Source: a virus. Taken from it: a stretch of 64,000 nt of DNA. The notes under the pieces were generated by a model. The model saw only the letters and a list, made by a program, of their open reading frames with translations. It was not told where the DNA came from and did no database searches. The translations under genes were made by a program, and so were the position numbers. Shown here piece by piece: positions 14,767-36,377 of the stretch (position 1 is the first letter of the stretch; each line of letters begins with the position of its first letter). Where the stretch lies: positions 35,933 to 99,932 of the IMG/VR virus record IMGVR_UViG_3300005529_000002; one strand, written 5' to 3'.

Positions 14767-15066
14767 ATGGGTCATCATGCCATCACGCAGCTCTGGCTCA
14801 GCAGCCTCACCCGCCGCGCCGCTGCCTTCCTCGCCGCGGTCTTCAAAGGCCCGTGGTGCCTCGGATGCGACTGCTGCGGAACCACCCTGAAGAAGGGCCG
14901 CCGTACCCGCTGGTTCCTGACCCGTGAAGCAGCAGACCGCGCTGGTCTCGAAGCCGGCTGGCAGACCGCGGCGGGCAGGAGCGATTCCGAGATCTGCCCC
15001 GCCTGCCTGGAGCAGCGGGGCCAGGCGGTCACTTTCTCTCAGGACACCCCGGCCGGTGAGTCATGA
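14767..15066 (+). CDS. Zinc-ribbon protein leading the WhiB operon, 99 aa
   Basis: The ATG at 14767 follows AAGGAGG. A hydrophobic/basic N-terminus (ITQLWLSSLTRRAAAFLAAV) precedes CLGCDCCGTTLKKGRRTRW and a later CPACLEQ, which form a probable zinc ribbon. It overlaps the WhiB gene by four bases (ATGA). Function unknown; the 5' region carries the twin hairpins. Confidence 0.7.
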   Translation: MGHHAITQLWLSSLTRRAAAFLAAVFKGPWCLGCDCCGTTLKKGRRTRWFLTREAADRAGLEAGWQTAAGRSDSEICPACLEQRGQAVTFSQDTPAGES

Positions 15067-15350
15067 GCCTCCCCGCCTGGAGCTGGGCAGACCGCGCCGC
15101 GTGCAAGGGCACCGACCCGGACGCGGCATTGTTCTTCGGGCTGGACGGCGAGCGCGGCCCCGAGCGGGATAAGCGCGAAGCAGCGGCCCGGACAGTCTGC
15201 GCGCCGTGCCCGGTGCGCATCGCCTGCCTGGACTACGCCATCGCCAACGCCGAGCGGTACGGCACGTGGGGCGGATTCAGCGAGGACGAGCGTGCCGCTG
15301 AGCGCCGCCGCCAGATGCGCCGCGCCGCCAGGAAGCAGGCAGCGGCATGA
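15063..15350 (+). CDS. WhiB-like iron-sulfur transcription factor, 95 aa
   Basis: The four conserved cysteines are at 14, 46, 49 and 55 (CKG, CAPC, IAC), followed by GTWGG at 67-71 and a basic C-terminal tail (RRRQMRRAARK). This is the complete Wbl signature. Wbl proteins bind a 4Fe-4S cluster and act with the sigma factor; phage copies such as TM4 WhiB can block host division or cause exclusion. Here it is translationally coupled to the membrane protein and FtsK-like gene, implying joint control. Confidence 0.95.
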   Translation: MSLPAWSWADRAACKGTDPDAALFFGLDGERGPERDKREAAARTVCAPCPVRIACLDYAIANAERYGTWGGFSEDERAAERRRQMRRAARKQAAA

Positions 15351-15568
15351 TCCGCGTCCTGCTCGCCGCCATGCTGGCCGCAACCGGCCACGCAGGGGCA
15401 TCGGTACTCGTCGCCGTCCTCGTGATCGCGGCCCGGCTGGCCAGGGTCCTGCTGCCGGTGCTGCCCCAGCTGGCCGTCGCCGTTCCCGCAGTCGCGATCG
15501 TCCTGACCGGCCTCCTGGCGTTCCGGGCCGTCAAGGGATGGCCTCACCTCGCGGCGGTGGCCGGATGA
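15347..15568 (+). CDS. Small hydrophobic membrane protein, 73 aa
   Basis: The protein is almost entirely hydrophobic, with two TM segments (AAMLAATGHAGASVLVAVL and a second from LPVLPQLAV to LLAF). It has ATGA overlaps with both the WhiB gene and the FtsK-like gene. Small membrane proteins beside traB are typical of actinobacterial conjugative elements (Spd-type spread proteins). The assignment rests on position and hydrophobicity. Confidence 0.7.
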   Translation: MIRVLLAAMLAATGHAGASVLVAVLVIAARLARVLLPVLPQLAVAVPAVAIVLTGLLAFRAVKGWPHLAAVAG

Positions 15569-17736
15569 CCGCCAGCGGCCCGCAGAACCTGCCCGCCGTC
15601 CCTGGCGAGTCCGGCGCGGACGAGATCGTCGACGGGGTGATCGTCGACGAGCCGCCCGGCGTTGACGGGCCGGCGGCCGGCGTCGCCGCCGTCATCCGGG
15701 TTATCGTGCGGCCTGAGCACGCCAAGTCGGCCGGCCGTCACCTGGCCTACATCCCGCTCGGCTTCGCCGTCATGTGCCGTCGCCTGTGGGACAGCCGGAC
15801 GACAGCCCGCTACGAGCGGTTCATCCGGGCAGCCGAAGCGGCCGGGAACCACGAGGCCGCGCTGGAGTGGGACGACCAGACGCAGACGTTCCGCCGCGAC
15901 CGGCACCAGCGCCGCGTCGACATGATCGAAGTGCCCGTCCGGGTGCTGCTGATGCTCCCGAAGATCGGCATGGGCCTGCTCGGCGTTCTTCTCTGCCTCG
16001 GCATCATGCTGGCTGTCGCCACGGGGCACGTCTCCGAGGTCGCCGTCCCGGCCAGGGTGCTCGCACGGATCGTGTTCTGGACGGGACTCGTGCTGTCGGT
16101 GTCCTGGGGTCCGCTCCTGCTCTCGCTGCCCTGGATAGCCCTCGGCGCGCTGTGGTGGACCGGCCGGGCGCACGCCAACGCGAACCTGACCGGCTGGCTG
16201 GTGCCGGATAAGGACGAGGAGGACGCCGGCATCGTGGTGACGGCGGACACGATCGTGCTGGCCCTCCAGAACCTGGACAAGATCCCCGCGCTGAAGAAAG
16301 CGTTCAAGGACGGCTGGCGGCCAACATTCCACACGCTGCCGGTCAAGGACGGCCGAGGCTACTTCACGGTGTTCAGCGTCCCGCTCGGCGTCACCGCCGG
16401 GATGGTCGCCGACCAGCGGCCGGTGCTCGCCCGCAACGTGCACCGCGCCGAACCGGAGGTGTGGCCGACCGACGCCGAGAAATCCGGTCAGGGGCCGGCA
16501 GGCACCGTCGCCATGTGGATCGCCGACCCCGGCGTCCTGTCCAAGGCCGCGCCGGAGTACCCGCTCATGCACGAAGGCACCGCCGACGTGTTCACGGGCG
16601 TGCCGGGCGGGGTGGTGGCGCGCGGCGACGGCCTCCTCATCCCGGTCGTTGGCAACAACTTCGTGGCCGGCGGCCAGATGGGCCAAGGGAAGTCCAACGC
16701 CTGCCGCGTGCTCATGCTCGGCTGCGCCCTGGATCCGCTCGCCGTGCTGGACGTTTTCGTGTTCGCGAACAACGGCGACTTCGACGCGTACGCGCCCCGG
16801 CTGCACATCTACCGCAAAGGCGTCGAGGACGACGTGGTCCTGGCCGCCCTCGGCCGCCTGCACCAGCTGTATGGCGAAGTCGGCCGGCGCGAGCAGCGTC
16901 TCGCGGACCTCGGCGCGAAGAAGGTCACCCGCGGACTGGCGCAGGAGCACCCGGACCTGCGGCCGGTCATCGCCCTGTTCAGCGAGTGCCATGAGCTGTT
17001 CGGCCACCCCGAGTACGGCGAGGAAGCCGCCGACGTGGCCACCAAGACAATCAAGCGGGCGCGGAAGACCGCCGTCTCCCTGGGGTTCGACACCCAGAGC
17101 AGCCGCAAGGAAGCCATACCGCCGAAGCTGGTCGAGCTGGTCAGCGTCAACGCGTGCTTCTACGTCAAGACCTGGCGCTCCAATGACGGCTTCCTCGGCG
17201 ACGGGTCGTTCGCCGCGGGCATCCGCGCGACCGAGCTGCGGCCCGGCCGCGACCGGGGCACGTCGGTAATCACCGGCGTGTCCGAGGCGCAGTTCGAGCT
17301 GCTCCGCTGGTATTTCGTGGAGGTCAACGACGACACCGGCTATGACGCGGCGGCCGAGGTGATCGGCCGCGCCATGGCGAGCCTCGCGCCCGGCACGCGC
17401 CTGACATCAGGCGAGCCGCTGCCCGAGATCGAGCGCCGCGACCTCCTCGACGACCTGGACGAGGTGCTCGAATACGAGCGGGTCAAGCTGGCCGACTTGC
17501 CCGCGCTGCTCCGCGAGCTGGCCGGGGACTGGGGACCGTACCGGAACCTGACCGGCACCCAGCTCCGCGAGCTGCTTGATGACCTGGACGTGCGGACCAC
17601 GAACGTCGGGAACGTGCCGAGGCTCGACCCGGCCGACCTGCGCCGTGCGCTGGCCGGAAGGGGTGAGTTAGATCGCGCCCCTCTACCCGGAACAGGCCCT
17701 GCGGGCACCTGCGGACGGGGACCTAACCCCGCCTAA
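15565..17736 (+). CDS. FtsK/SpoIIIE-like DNA translocase (TraB-type), 723 aa
   Basis: The ATG at 15565 overlaps the preceding stop. Two TM segments lie at about residues 130-200 (LGVLLCLGIMLAVATG, WGPLLLSLPWIALGAL). A Walker A GQMGQGKS is at 370-377 with further FtsK-like blocks (VIALFSECHELFGHPEYG, SLGFDTQSSRKEA, FLGDGSFAAGIRATEL). This matches the membrane-anchored hexameric translocases that move double-stranded DNA during Streptomyces conjugation. The C-terminal about 60 residues may include the sequence-reading wing domain. A phased CTAAC repeat cluster overlaps and follows its 3' end, as a recognition site would. Confidence 0.88.
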   Translation: MTASGPQNLPAVPGESGADEIVDGVIVDEPPGVDGPAAGVAAVIRVIVRPEHAKSAGRHLAYIPLGFAVMCRRLWDSRTTARYERFIRAAEAAGNHEAALEWDDQTQTFRRDRHQRRVDMIEVPVRVLLMLPKIGMGLLGVLLCLGIMLAVATGHVSEVAVPARVLARIVFWTGLVLSVSWGPLLLSLPWIALGALWWTGRAHANANLTGWLVPDKDEEDAGIVVTADTIVLALQNLDKIPALKKAFKDGWRPTFHTLPVKDGRGYFTVFSVPLGVTAGMVADQRPVLARNVHRAEPEVWPTDAEKSGQGPAGTVAMWIADPGVLSKAAPEYPLMHEGTADVFTGVPGGVVARGDGLLIPVVGNNFVAGGQMGQGKSNACRVLMLGCALDPLAVLDVFVFANNGDFDAYAPRLHIYRKGVEDDVVLAALGRLHQLYGEVGRREQRLADLGAKKVTRGLAQEHPDLRPVIALFSECHELFGHPEYGEEAADVATKTIKRARKTAVSLGFDTQSSRKEAIPPKLVELVSVNACFYVKTWRSNDGFLGDGSFAAGIRATELRPGRDRGTSVITGVSEAQFELLRWYFVEVNDDTGYDAAAEVIGRAMASLAPGTRLTSGEPLPEIERRDLLDDLDEVLEYERVKLADLPALLRELAGDWGPYRNLTGTQLRELLDDLDVRTTNVGNVPRLDPADLRRALAGRGELDRAPLPGTGPAGTCGRGPNPA

Positions 17737-17841
17737 CCCGTCTAACGCGACCTAACTTCTGCAGGTCAGGGACCTGCGGGCAGCGATCGCCCCCACCTAA
17801 CGAGGGGGTTAGAAAACTAACCCCCGCACCCGTGAGCTAAC
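17667..17841. repeat. Phased CTAAC repeat cluster, candidate clt or origin-like site
   Basis: CTAAC starts at 17723, 17733, 17742, 17752, 17797, 17817 and 17837. GTTAG (inverse) starts at 17667 and 17808. Spacing is 10, 9, 10, 45, 20 and 20 bases, close to multiples of the helical turn. GGGGGTTAG-AAAA-CTAACCCCC (17804-17825) is a perfect 9-bp hairpin. The cluster spans the 3' end of the translocase gene and the 123-base gap after it. In Streptomyces plasmids TraB reads short repeats in clt near traB. Confidence 0.65.
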
Positions 17842-18663: not shown

Positions 18664-18914
18664 AGCTGTTCCGCAGGCGCGGCGTGCCTGCCAGGCCCGA
18701 CTACATGACGCAGGCAGAGCACCTCCAGGAGGCCGGACGCCTGGCCTGGGTCATTGACGACGTGATGCAGTCCCGCGCGAAGCGCAGCCTCGGCGATGTG
18801 ATCGCGCTCGCCCGGCTGCACCTGGAGCTCGCCCAGGTCGCGCGGCACAACGAGGGCACCCGCCTGGATGCCCCGCTACCAGAAGGAGAAACCCCATGTC
18901 ACTGCCGGAAATGA
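18660..18914 (+). CDS. Small hypothetical protein, 84 aa
   Basis: A basic start (MKLFRRRGVPARPDYMTQ) leads into a helical protein. Its last 19 bases overlap the mIHF-like gene. No domain is recognised. Overlaps at both ends mark it as part of the same transcript. Confidence 0.65.
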   Translation: MKLFRRRGVPARPDYMTQAEHLQEAGRLAWVIDDVMQSRAKRSLGDVIALARLHLELAQVARHNEGTRLDAPLPEGETPCHCRK

Positions 18915-19216
18915 CCCCGGAGCAGCGTGCCGAGGCGCTGCGGAAGGCCGCCGAGACGCGCAGGCTCCGCGCGGCCGAACTGGAGAAGGTCCGCAAGGGC
19001 CAGATCACTGTCACCGACGTGCTCGACAGCGGCGACTCGCTGCTGCTGCCGGTGCCCGTGCGCCGGCTGCTCCTCGCGGTTCCCGGCATCGGCCCGGCCA
19101 AGGCGGACGCCCTGCTCGACGCGATCGGCGTCAGCGCAGAGTTCCGCAAGAAGCGCCGCGTTCAGGGCCTCGGCGAGGTCCAGCGCAAGGCGCTCCGCGA
19201 GCGTCTCGCAGCCTGA
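18896..19216 (+). CDS. mIHF-like DNA-bending protein, 106 aa
   Basis: The C-terminal VRRLLLAVPGIGPAKADALL, IGVSAEFRKKRRVQGLG and QRKALRERL match the actinobacterial integration host factor: a helix-two-turn-helix that contacts DNA, then a conserved RRVxGLG motif. The N-terminus (TPEQRAEALRKAAETRRLRA) also fits. Length is as expected (105-110 aa). Host mIHF supports site-specific recombination and nucleoid structure; an element-borne copy may aid its own integration, packaging or transfer. Confidence 0.88.
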   Translation: MSLPEMTPEQRAEALRKAAETRRLRAAELEKVRKGQITVTDVLDSGDSLLLPVPVRRLLLAVPGIGPAKADALLDAIGVSAEFRKKRRVQGLGEVQRKALRERLAA

Positions 19217-19295: not shown

Positions 19296-20183
19296 ATGAC
19301 GCCCCCGGCCGCCGCCAACGGCACCCATGTCCTGACGCCGGAGTTCGTCGCGCTGCTGCGGCACCGGGAGCTTGCGGACGCCACTGCCGCAGCGACAGCG
19401 GACGCGCCGCAGCCGCGGCGGGAACCGCCATCGCTGTGGCGCCGGCAGCACCTTGACGGCGACACGGTGATCCGCATCGTGGCGGCTTCGGCAGTGCTCG
19501 GTGTCGCCGTCATCGCGGCAGTGGTCAGCTACTCGCATATCTACGACCTGGCCCGCCATCATGGCGAGTCGGGAACCGCCGCCAGGCTCCTGCCGGTGTC
19601 GGTTGACGGGCTGATCGCGTCCGCCAGCCTCGCGCTCTTGCATGCCGCCAGGAACCGCATCGACGCGCCGTGGATGGCGTACCTGATGCTGTGGCTCGGT
19701 GTCGGCGCCACGATCGCCGCCAATGTCGGGTTCGGGCTGCCTGCGGGCTGGCTGTCGGCCGTCATCGCCGCGTGGCCCGCCGCCGCGTTTGTCGGGTCGG
19801 TGGAGATGGCGCTGATGCTGGCCAGGAACAGGCGCCGGGCCGCCGCGGACTCTGGCGGGAACGGATGCCGCAAGCCGCGATGGCGGCGAAGATGGCGGGG
19901 ACAGTGCGCCTGCCGCGCCGTGCCGGATGCGGACCCTCCGGCCGCCGCCCCTCAGCCGCCATCGCAGCCAGCCGCCGCCGCCCCTCAGCCGCCAGTCCGC
20001 GCCCGCAAGCCGGCACGCAAACCCGCCATGTCGGCTGCCGCCAAATCCGCCAGGGCGGATGCGGAACTGGCCGCCAGGCCGCACCTGACCAACGCTGAGA
20101 TCGCCAAGCGCGCCGGAGTGTCGGAACGCACGGTGGAGCGCCGCCGCGAGGCGGCACGGAAAGCTGCGACAATCGGATCGTGA
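19296..20183 (+). CDS. DUF2637-like membrane protein with C-terminal HTH, 295 aa
   Basis: The ATG at 19296 follows GAGAGAGG. Four hydrophobic segments occupy about residues 55-185 (IVAASAVLGVAVIAAVVSY, PVSVDGLIASASLALLHAA, MLWLGVGATIAANVGFGL, AVIAAWPAAAFVGSVEMAL), the DUF2637 pattern found beside traB in Streptomyces elements. A Pro/Ala/Arg-rich linker leads to HLTNAEIAKRAGVSERTVERRR, a helix-turn-helix. The protein could tether a DNA site to the membrane. This is family knowledge plus inference. Confidence 0.82.
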   Translation: MTPPAAANGTHVLTPEFVALLRHRELADATAAATADAPQPRREPPSLWRRQHLDGDTVIRIVAASAVLGVAVIAAVVSYSHIYDLARHHGESGTAARLLPVSVDGLIASASLALLHAARNRIDAPWMAYLMLWLGVGATIAANVGFGLPAGWLSAVIAAWPAAAFVGSVEMALMLARNRRRAAADSGGNGCRKPRWRRRWRGQCACRAVPDADPPAAAPQPPSQPAAAAPQPPVRARKPARKPAMSAAAKSARADAELAARPHLTNAEIAKRAGVSERTVERRREAARKAATIGS

Positions 20184-34865: not shown

Positions 34866-36377
34866 ATGACCGCAGCAGCAGAAGACATCACAGAGGAAAC
34901 CCTCGCCGCGATCAAGAAGGCCCAGACCACGGGCATCACCGAGGCGACCGGCGGATACTCCTACGACCTGTCGGGCCTCATCAACCTGATCCCGGTCGTC
35001 ACCCCGTTCCGCGACCACGTCCCCCGCACGTCAAGCCCGGACGGCAACCCGTTCGCGGTCTGGCGGGCGTTCATGGACGCCACCAACAGCCAGCCCGACC
35101 CCAGCATGGGCTTCGACTTCGCGGCCCCGGAGATGGTGTTCAACGAGCAGGACTTCCAGGCCCGGTACAAGCCGACCGGCATGGCAGTCAACGTCACCCA
35201 GGACTCGTTTGACCTGGCCAAGGGGTACTACGACCCGTACGCCAACGCCACGTTCCAGACCCTGAACCAGGTGCTGATCGGCGACGACCGCAAGCAGCTG
35301 TGCGCCCAGTCGTTCGCGTTGAAGGCGGCGACCGCGCCGACCCTCACCCAGCACGCCTCAGGCGGCACCATCGGCGCCGTCCAGGTGTACGTCGGCGTCG
35401 CCGGCCGCACCGGCTCCGGGTACTTCTGGGGTTCCGGGAACAGCCAGGGCGCGAGCAGCAACACCACGTTCGGGTCAGGGTCAGCCAACTCGGTGTCGGC
35501 TACCACCGCGGCGCTGCGCGGCGCCGTCGCCTACGACTGGTTCCAGAGCAGCAACGGCACCACCTGGTACTACTACGGGACCACCACGGTCAACGCGATC
35601 ACGATGACCTCCGTCATCACGTCGAACAACGCCGTCTCGTCAGGAGTCACGGTCCCGGACCTGACCGCCAACTGGAACGGCATCGCACCCGGCAAGCCCG
35701 GCTACACCGGCCCGACCTACAACGGGTCGGCCGACAACGGGTCCGCGAACGCCAACGACTATGACGGGTTCCTCGCCTCCCTTTCCGGCGACTACGACGG
35801 CAATGGCAAGTGGACCCAGCCCGGCCTCGGCACCGTGAACCCGTCCGTGTGGAACAGCCTCAACGGCGCGGCGCTGACCCTGACCGGCGGCACCGTCACC
35901 GAGATCGAGCAGTACCTGTTCCTGCCGCTGTGGCAGCAGGTCAAGTGCAGTCCCACCGCGATCATGTGCAACGGCATCCAGGCCCAGGAGATCGCCAACC
36001 TGATCCTCGGCGCCAACAGCGCGACCACGTTCCTCAACACCGATTCCAGCGGCCGCATCAACGTGTCCGCAGGCGGCCGGGTCGGGCACGTCATCAACGC
36101 CTACACGGGCGGCACCGAGGTCCCGATCGAGGTCCACGTCTCGCTGCCCCCGGGCACGATCATCGCCCGCACCGACCGGGTTCCCTTCCCCCAGGCGAAC
36201 ATCTCCAGCGTGCTGGAGCAGCGGTGCCTGCGCGACACCGCCCAGTACGAGTACGGCGTCTCCCGCGTACCCGGGGTGCAGGGCGGAGGCCCGCGGAAGG
36301 AAAGCGAAATCCGCACAGTCAGCGCGTTCATCAACCGCGCGCCGGTCGCGATGGCCGCCCTGTCGAACGTCGCCTGA
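34866..36377 (+). CDS. Major capsid protein, HK97-like, 503 aa
   Basis: The ATG follows an ideal GGAAGGAGG. The protein follows scaffold and protease genes and has the expected N-arm (TGGYSYDLSGLINLIPVVTPF) and C-terminal part (VEVPIEVHV-like strands, VLEQRCLRDTAQYEYGVSRV, SEIRTVSAFINRAPVAM). A Gly/Ser/Asn-rich region at about 160-310 (GSGYFWGSGNSQGASSNTTF, SSNGTTWYYYGTTTVNA) looks like an inserted beta domain exposed on the shell. Function is assigned from order and fold-like features. Confidence 0.85.
   Translation: MTAAAEDITEETLAAIKKAQTTGITEATGGYSYDLSGLINLIPVVTPFRDHVPRTSSPDGNPFAVWRAFMDATNSQPDPSMGFDFAAPEMVFNEQDFQARYKPTGMAVNVTQDSFDLAKGYYDPYANATFQTLNQVLIGDDRKQLCAQSFALKAATAPTLTQHASGGTIGAVQVYVGVAGRTGSGYFWGSGNSQGASSNTTFGSGSANSVSATTAALRGAVAYDWFQSSNGTTWYYYGTTTVNAITMTSVITSNNAVSSGVTVPDLTANWNGIAPGKPGYTGPTYNGSADNGSANANDYDGFLASLSGDYDGNGKWTQPGLGTVNPSVWNSLNGAALTLTGGTVTEIEQYLFLPLWQQVKCSPTAIMCNGIQAQEIANLILGANSATTFLNTDSSGRINVSAGGRVGHVINAYTGGTEVPIEVHVSLPPGTIIARTDRVPFPQANISSVLEQRCLRDTAQYEYGVSRVPGVQGGGPRKESEIRTVSAFINRAPVAMAALSNVA

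Follow-up and report, generated by a model that had tools for sequence, protein, structure and literature searches.

A CTAAC array at the 3' end of a translocase gene in a temperate actinophage: a putative clt/TRS-type loading site

The translocase locus and its phage setting

The DNA analysed here, referred to as the window, is a 64,000-nucleotide stretch (positions 35,933 to 99,932) of the 99,932-bp virus record IMGVR_UViG_3300005529_000002, a temperate actinobacterial phage. To the left of the translocase module lie genes for a serine integrase and a DnaB-like helicase together with other early-type genes, and to its right are the terminase (25221), portal (27734), tape-measure (41705) and minor tail genes. 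Between the early and the structural genes are found a WhiB gene, the translocase gene, the repeat array, several small genes, a gene for integration host factor and a DUF2637 gene. The phage-encoded WhiB-type regulator (15063-15350) is immediately 5' of the translocase. The features of the module are as follows.

15565-17736, + strand: TraB/FtsK-like DNA translocase gene (open reading frame; the ATG start at 15565 is inferred, the frame being open from 15292)
17443-17667, + strand: C-terminal winged-helix domain of the translocase (AlphaFold2 model; divergence there tracks the repeat word)
17599-17625, + strand: wing hairpin TNVGNVPRL, whose asparagine (model residue 65) accompanies CTAAC words
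17666-17677, - strand: box A, inverted copy GTTAG (17667-17671), from word count and extended complementarity
17723-17727, + strand: extra direct CTAAC copy, matching in position the extra copy of a relative (L001)
17733-17737, + strand: box B, direct CTAAC copy overlapping the translocase stop codon
17742-17746, + strand: box C, direct CTAAC copy
17752-17756, + strand: box D, direct CTAAC copy
17761-17768, + strand: GCAGGTCA, 3' of box D, fitting the motif GC[AT]GNTCA that recurs here in layout I loci
17797-17801, + strand: additional direct CTAAC copy 5' of the hairpin
17808-17812, - strand: box E1, inverted copy in the 5' arm of the hairpin (17804-17812)
17817-17821, + strand: box E2, direct copy in the 3' arm of the hairpin (17817-17825)
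17837-17841, + strand: box F, direct copy 20 bp beyond E2 (19-20 bp in relatives)
18896-19216, + strand: actinobacterial integration host factor encoded in the phage (NCBIfam NF041260 at 89.4 bits, cut-off 60)
19296-20183, + strand: DUF2637 membrane protein (Pfam PF10935)

The window translocase is 46-62% identical to chromosomally encoded translocases of Actinomadura, Amycolatopsis, Pseudonocardia and Lentzea. A Walker A motif (GGQMGQGKSN) is present and the RecA-like motor is homologous to that of characterised TraB; in a tblastn comparison with TraB of pSVH1, identity over the aligned motor part was 26.6% (E 9e-14). The match to Pfam FtsK_SpoIIIE was sub-threshold (E 0.004, 17.1 bits against a cut-off of 24). 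AlphaFold2 modelled the C-terminal 85 residues (17419-17673) as a winged helix with a pLDDT of 86, and its elements (helices 9-17, 24-34, 39-42 and 46-55, strands 61-63 and 66-69, and helix 71-83) follow the order of a winged helix-turn-helix with a two-strand wing. The full-length model was poor (pLDDT 57) and served solely to delimit this domain. A fold search of the domain model against the PDB gave no match below E 0.001, the best matches including several winged-helix proteins, none of them significant, and sequence searches of the PDB with profiles of the domain and of the full-length protein returned nothing useful.

Nine CTAAC words, seven direct and two inverted, are packed into the 175 bp of 17667-17841, an array that overlaps the translocase gene at its 3' end. 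They represent 9 of the 14 copies on both strands of the window, over which the word is under-represented (23.8 expected), and 9 of the 18 in the whole record. Such clustering exceeds what chance allows: in 300 shuffled windows (approximately dinucleotide-preserving), the maximum number of CTAAC words per 175 bp was usually 2 and never more than 4. Successive direct copies are spaced by 10, 9, 10, 45, 20 and 20 bp, and the extended complement of box A is box D in the window and box B in relatives.

Conservation of the array among relatives

The comparison set comprised 124 distinct translocase loci from actinobacterial genomes and IMG/VR phage contigs. Six of the loci were obtained by genome scan, others came from Pseudonocardiaceae, from the order of L001 and from viral contigs, and further regions were taken directly. 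In most of the 124 the translocase gene has a repeated-word array at its 3' end, similarly placed and of fixed geometry, and at least 88 scored above every shuffled control, 51 of them in one layout (layout I) and 37 in a second (layout II). Layout I is that of the window: box A is inverted, the direct boxes B, C and D follow one another at intervals of 8-9 bp, E1 is inverted and E2 direct, box F lies 19-20 bp past E2 and, often, a box G 12-13 bp beyond F; the distance from E1 to E2 was 9 in all 25 loci where it was measured. A template for this layout that was blind to the word gave scores of 21 or more in 51 of the 124 loci, compared to maxima of 19 in 992 shuffles and 18 in 123 coding control regions. 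Layout II has four direct, three inverted, two direct and one inverted copies in that order, and its template scored 27-37 in 37 loci, with a shuffle maximum of 24. About 36 loci fit neither template above these thresholds. The genes 3' of the array, named by inspecting their translations, differ, being ParA-like in L002, a serine recombinase in L003 and small genes in the window.

These data bear on several claims of an initial annotation of the window. Its seven direct CTAAC copies (starting at 17723, 17733, 17742, 17752, 17797, 17817 and 17837) held with exact positions. Its two inverse copies, located at 17667 and 17808, were confirmed, as was the existence, if not a functional role, of a 9-bp hairpin with an AAAA loop (17804-17812 / 17817-17825). 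Its proposal that the spacings keep the sites on one face of the helix failed as a general property, because the corresponding direct copies in relatives are 8-9 bp apart and 10.5-bp phasing is therefore not conserved; with spacings of 8-9, 19-20 and 12-13 bp in relatives, helical phasing was rejected as a conserved feature. Relatives having the same translocase without the repeats were to have refuted its reading, and the opposite was found, the array being kept in many of them.

Some further observations were made on individual loci. The motif GC[AT]GNTCA follows box D in 31 of 64 layout I loci and does not follow changes of the word; it was rejected as a universal motif on that count, and may perhaps be a site for another protein. 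Separate dense repeat arrays are present at L001:13082-13284 (TGACGCA), L004:1368-1531 (CCGTAAC) and L005:10937-11157 (GTGACA), and are likely the replication iterons of those elements. The translocase frame of L006 is broken into two open frames, and in L014 the C-terminal domain is apparently read out of frame next to an intact array.

Concerted word switches and covariation with the wing

The word itself differs from clade to clade. In layout I it is CTAAC in most loci and CTCAC, TTCCCT, CGCACT, TCCACT, CCAAC or TCACAT in others, and in layout II it is AGGGAG, GGGGAG, CGGGGA or CAGGGA. Most copies in a locus switch jointly, even where pairing between them is impossible, and this suggests that the word is read by a protein. 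A candidate for the responsible part of the translocase was obtained by partial Mantel tests, in which distances between words were tested against distances between the proteins in each 25-column segment while controlling for the rest of the protein (beforehand, the words of L018, L049, L057 and of the trimmed TTCCC set had been framed manually on the alignment). Word distance tracked the wing segment with a partial r of 0.55 (p 0.0005, n=71), and this remained at 0.55 after dereplication (n=43) and at 0.53 without the TTCCC clade, compared to a mean of about 0 and maxima of 0.33-0.40 for the other segments. Helix 3 alone gave an r of 0.29 (p 0.001), which fell to 0.11-0.18 after dereplication or the removal of one clade. 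The published determinant of specificity is helix alpha3 (PMC3583192, citing Vogelmann 2011), whereas in these tests most of the signal came from the wing and less of it from helix 3.

The asparagine at the tip of the wing is kept in every CTAAC locus with an intact C-terminal domain, and it is lost where the word is CCAAC, CGCAC, TCCAC, TTCCC or, in three phage loci, CTCAC(A). The presence of the asparagine and that of three or more CTAAC copies agreed in 108 of 116 loci. Relatedness was taken into account with a tree built without the C-terminal domain: among nine phylogenetically independent pairs differing in the asparagine, the word differed in the same way in 8.0 and in the opposite way in 0.2 (median p 0.008). 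Exceptions are the mixed CTAAC/CTCAC arrays that accompany the asparagine, L132 and L134 (in which the word frame differs), L058 and L014. As the arrays of L023, L024, L070, L072 and L077 mix CTAAC and CTCAC and their wings retain the asparagine, reading at that base must be loose and the asparagine rule is not absolute. That the word is specific to its own translocase rests on comparison only, namely its covariation with the wing of the C-terminal winged helix. K-x-G type wings were seen both in layout I loci with AGGGAA words (L030-L034, L039) and in layout II loci with AGGGAG; convergence towards reading AGGGA is one possibility.

Pairing within the array

The arms of the E1-E2 hairpin share their core word in 57% of loci, compared to 73% for D and E2 and 77% for A and B, and as the core words of the arms agree less often than those of unpaired copies, the hairpin was rejected as a functional structure. 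The A-B segment behaved differently in loci from bacterial genomes, where its mean folding z was -4.2 versus -0.2 and -0.5 in control segments, and the flanks of the A-B stem are complementary beyond the repeat word. In loci such as L065, L078, L061 and L014, this segment is about 77 nt long, lies at the translocase stop codon and folds into a stem, up to 18 bp in length, that has the repeat word as its base; the sequence varies while the pairing is kept. Most phage loci have only a weak stem, as does the window (z 0.1). No wobble bias of the sort expected of a sense RNA was found in the A-B stem, + strand G-T pairs (9) being no commoner than A-C (18), and the stem therefore looks like an inverted repeat at the level of DNA, as has been reported at other clt loci. 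An Rfam search gave no match for the A-B segment. A resemblance to spliceosomal introns (GTGAG...CTAAC...CAG) was also considered and dropped, since GTGAG is usually the stop-codon region of the translocase and the word varies by clade.

Comparison with known clt/TRS loci

The same enrichment scan was applied as a positive control to the 3' end of traB of pSVH1 (Streptomyces venezuelae), and it returned GACCCGGA at +15, +37, +69 and +90 and inverted at +106, with no copy in the preceding gene, which is the published 8-bp TRS. Like the window array, the pSVH1 site is directly 3' of the translocase gene and repeats a short word, of which pSVH1 has one inverted copy; its repeats are recognised by TraB through the C-terminal winged helix (Vogelmann 2011, cited in PMC3583192). 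The site differs in its word, GACCCGGA, in having four direct copies at spacings of 22, 32 and 21 bp, and in its TraB, which is only 26.6% identical to the window translocase over the aligned part. The clt of the Streptomyces plasmid pWTY27, which contains direct and inverted repeats, has 16 bp within traA and its other 159 bp beyond the gene, and gel shift and footprint assays showed that TraA binds it (PMC3583192). Like the window array, this clt measures 175 bp and begins inside the translocase gene, but its words are TGACACC and CCCGCCC, and pWTY27 is a theta plasmid and not a phage. In pJV1 and pIJ101, clt consists of multiple short direct repeats with inverted repeats and is required in cis for transfer (PMC3583192); unlike the window, their words are CCGCACA[CG][CG] and GC/AAAC, and the clt of pIJ101 is near korB. 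A parallel in word and layout is pCM32, a Saccharopolyspora endophytica plasmid rather than a phage. Its translocase has an STGN wing, and the 3' end of the gene carries six CTAAC copies arranged as layout I; an experimental clt for pCM32 was not found in the literature searched.

A probable loading site read by the phage's own translocase

We consider it very likely (probability about 0.8) that the array is a loading site of the clt/TRS kind read by the phage's own translocase. Its place and geometry, the concerted switches of its word and the covariation of word and wing are shown by comparison, and every feature of the clt/TRS kind that can be tested in sequence is met. Physical binding, the seeding of a hexamer and transfer of the phage DNA are inferred, there being no binding or transfer data. 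By this inference, the C-terminal winged helix, through its wing and recognition helix, would read the CTAAC words. With copies in both orientations at fixed distances, several subunits would be able to dock next to each other and so seed a hexamer. The hexamer would then pump the double-stranded DNA of the element, in all likelihood from one hyphal compartment or cell to another, as happens in conjugation of Streptomyces and of AICEs.

The initial annotation had arrived at a candidate clt or loading site from sequence alone, and that reading is supported by the kept geometry, the clade-wise switching of the word, the wing covariation and the placement of the pSVH1 and pWTY27 sites. Its suggestion that the motif departs from published TRS and may define a new specificity is likewise supported, the word being unlike GACCCGGA, TGACACC and CCGCACA[CG][CG], and compared to the known loci its word, its layout and its presence in a phage appear to be new. 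The origin or regulator site that it left as an alternative became very unlikely after the comparison. The integration host factor, an unusual phage cargo about 1 kb from the array, could conceivably be an architectural partner of the loading site, which is inference only.

Alternative explanations

The alternative that survives best, and which we still regard as unlikely, is that translocase and array serve prophage segregation, or the clearing of phage DNA from septa, and not conjugation. FtsK and SpoIIIE steer DNA at septa by short words, and orderly segregation might benefit a temperate phage. The KOPS of FtsK are G-rich, and the AGGGAG of layout II resembles them. Against this, close homologues belong to integrative elements and plasmids, where they have DUF2637 genes as neighbours, and the array is compact beside the gene instead of spread over the element, half of all CTAAC copies in 99.9 kb being within it.

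The remaining alternatives are very unlikely. If the repeats were operators through which the translocase or another regulator controls transfer or downstream genes, reading by the protein's own winged helix would permit such autoregulation equally well, and covariation cannot separate loading from regulation. However, the array is 3' of the translocase and ahead of unrelated genes, up to nine copies over 175 bp far exceed what an operator needs, and the pSVH1 and pWTY27 sites at the same place act in transfer. The short direct repeats, the inverted pair and the G+C-rich surroundings resemble iterons and would suit a replication origin to which a Rep protein binds, and rep genes can adjoin tra genes, a primase/polymerase gene being 3' of the array in pCM32. 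An origin of this type is countered by the word following the translocase wing, by the differing downstream genes of L002, L003 and the window, by the other repeat arrays elsewhere in L001, L004 and L005, and by the lack of any Rep found beside the window array, the phage DnaB being more than 20 kb away. Weakest is the idea that the translocase mRNA ends in a structured RNA or a transcription terminator, for which the perfect 9-bp hairpin of the window and the folding and flank complementarity of the bacterial A-B segment can be cited, and which is contradicted by the poor agreement of the E1/E2 arms, the absence of wobble bias, of an Rfam match and of a T run 3' of the window hairpin, and the weak A-B stem of the window and most phage loci.

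Translocase modules in other phages

The window phage is not alone in having such a module. In at least five other IMG/VR contigs (G741, G745, G746, G747 and G749; loci L148-L161) a translocase accompanies genes for portal, tape measure and/or terminase, the structural genes having been identified by reading the contigs. Searches of the phage contigs with the terminase and tape-measure of the window gave almost no matches. The terminase and portal families of these contigs differ from each other and from those of the window, and the module has therefore been taken up by several phage lineages. Its location in G741 and G747 is between the lysis/tail genes and the terminase. A DUF2637 gene is directly 5' of the translocase in G741, G743 and G745 (the match in G745 being just under the Pfam cut-off), and likewise in the Pseudonocardia alni plasmid pPaSha2.

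A bolder reading is that unrelated temperate actinophage lineages acquired a working AICE-type transfer module, i.e., a DUF2637 protein, a TraB-like translocase and a self-specific clt array, and that their prophages move from hypha to hypha as double-stranded DNA in addition to travelling in virions, which would make them conjugative phages. We put this forward tentatively, as the odds seem to us to be slightly against it. No description of phages with a conjugation module was found in the literature searched, which is weak evidence, most subscription papers having been outside the search. Were there conjugating phages in several lineages, models of gene flow in filamentous actinobacteria would change.

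Few clt loci have been mapped so far, all of them on Streptomyces plasmids in the literature searched, and even for pSAM2, the archetypal AICE, clt is stated to be undescribed (PMC9513070). The rule that a one-word array of fixed geometry is to be sought at the 3' end of the translocase gene provides candidate loading sites for dozens of elements, plasmids and phages. The wing covariation makes the recognition by TraB of its own element a question for swap experiments and, if it is borne out, the table of words and wings would be a readable code for translocase specificity.

Plasmid pPaSha2 itself (L147, CP052773.1) deserves a mention. No CTAAC copy was present in the stretch examined around its translocase. 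A circle of 41,938 bp, it has genes for terminase, portal, HK97 protease and capsid in addition to its FtsK-like translocase and DUF2637 protein, and is a candidate phage-plasmid with a transfer module.
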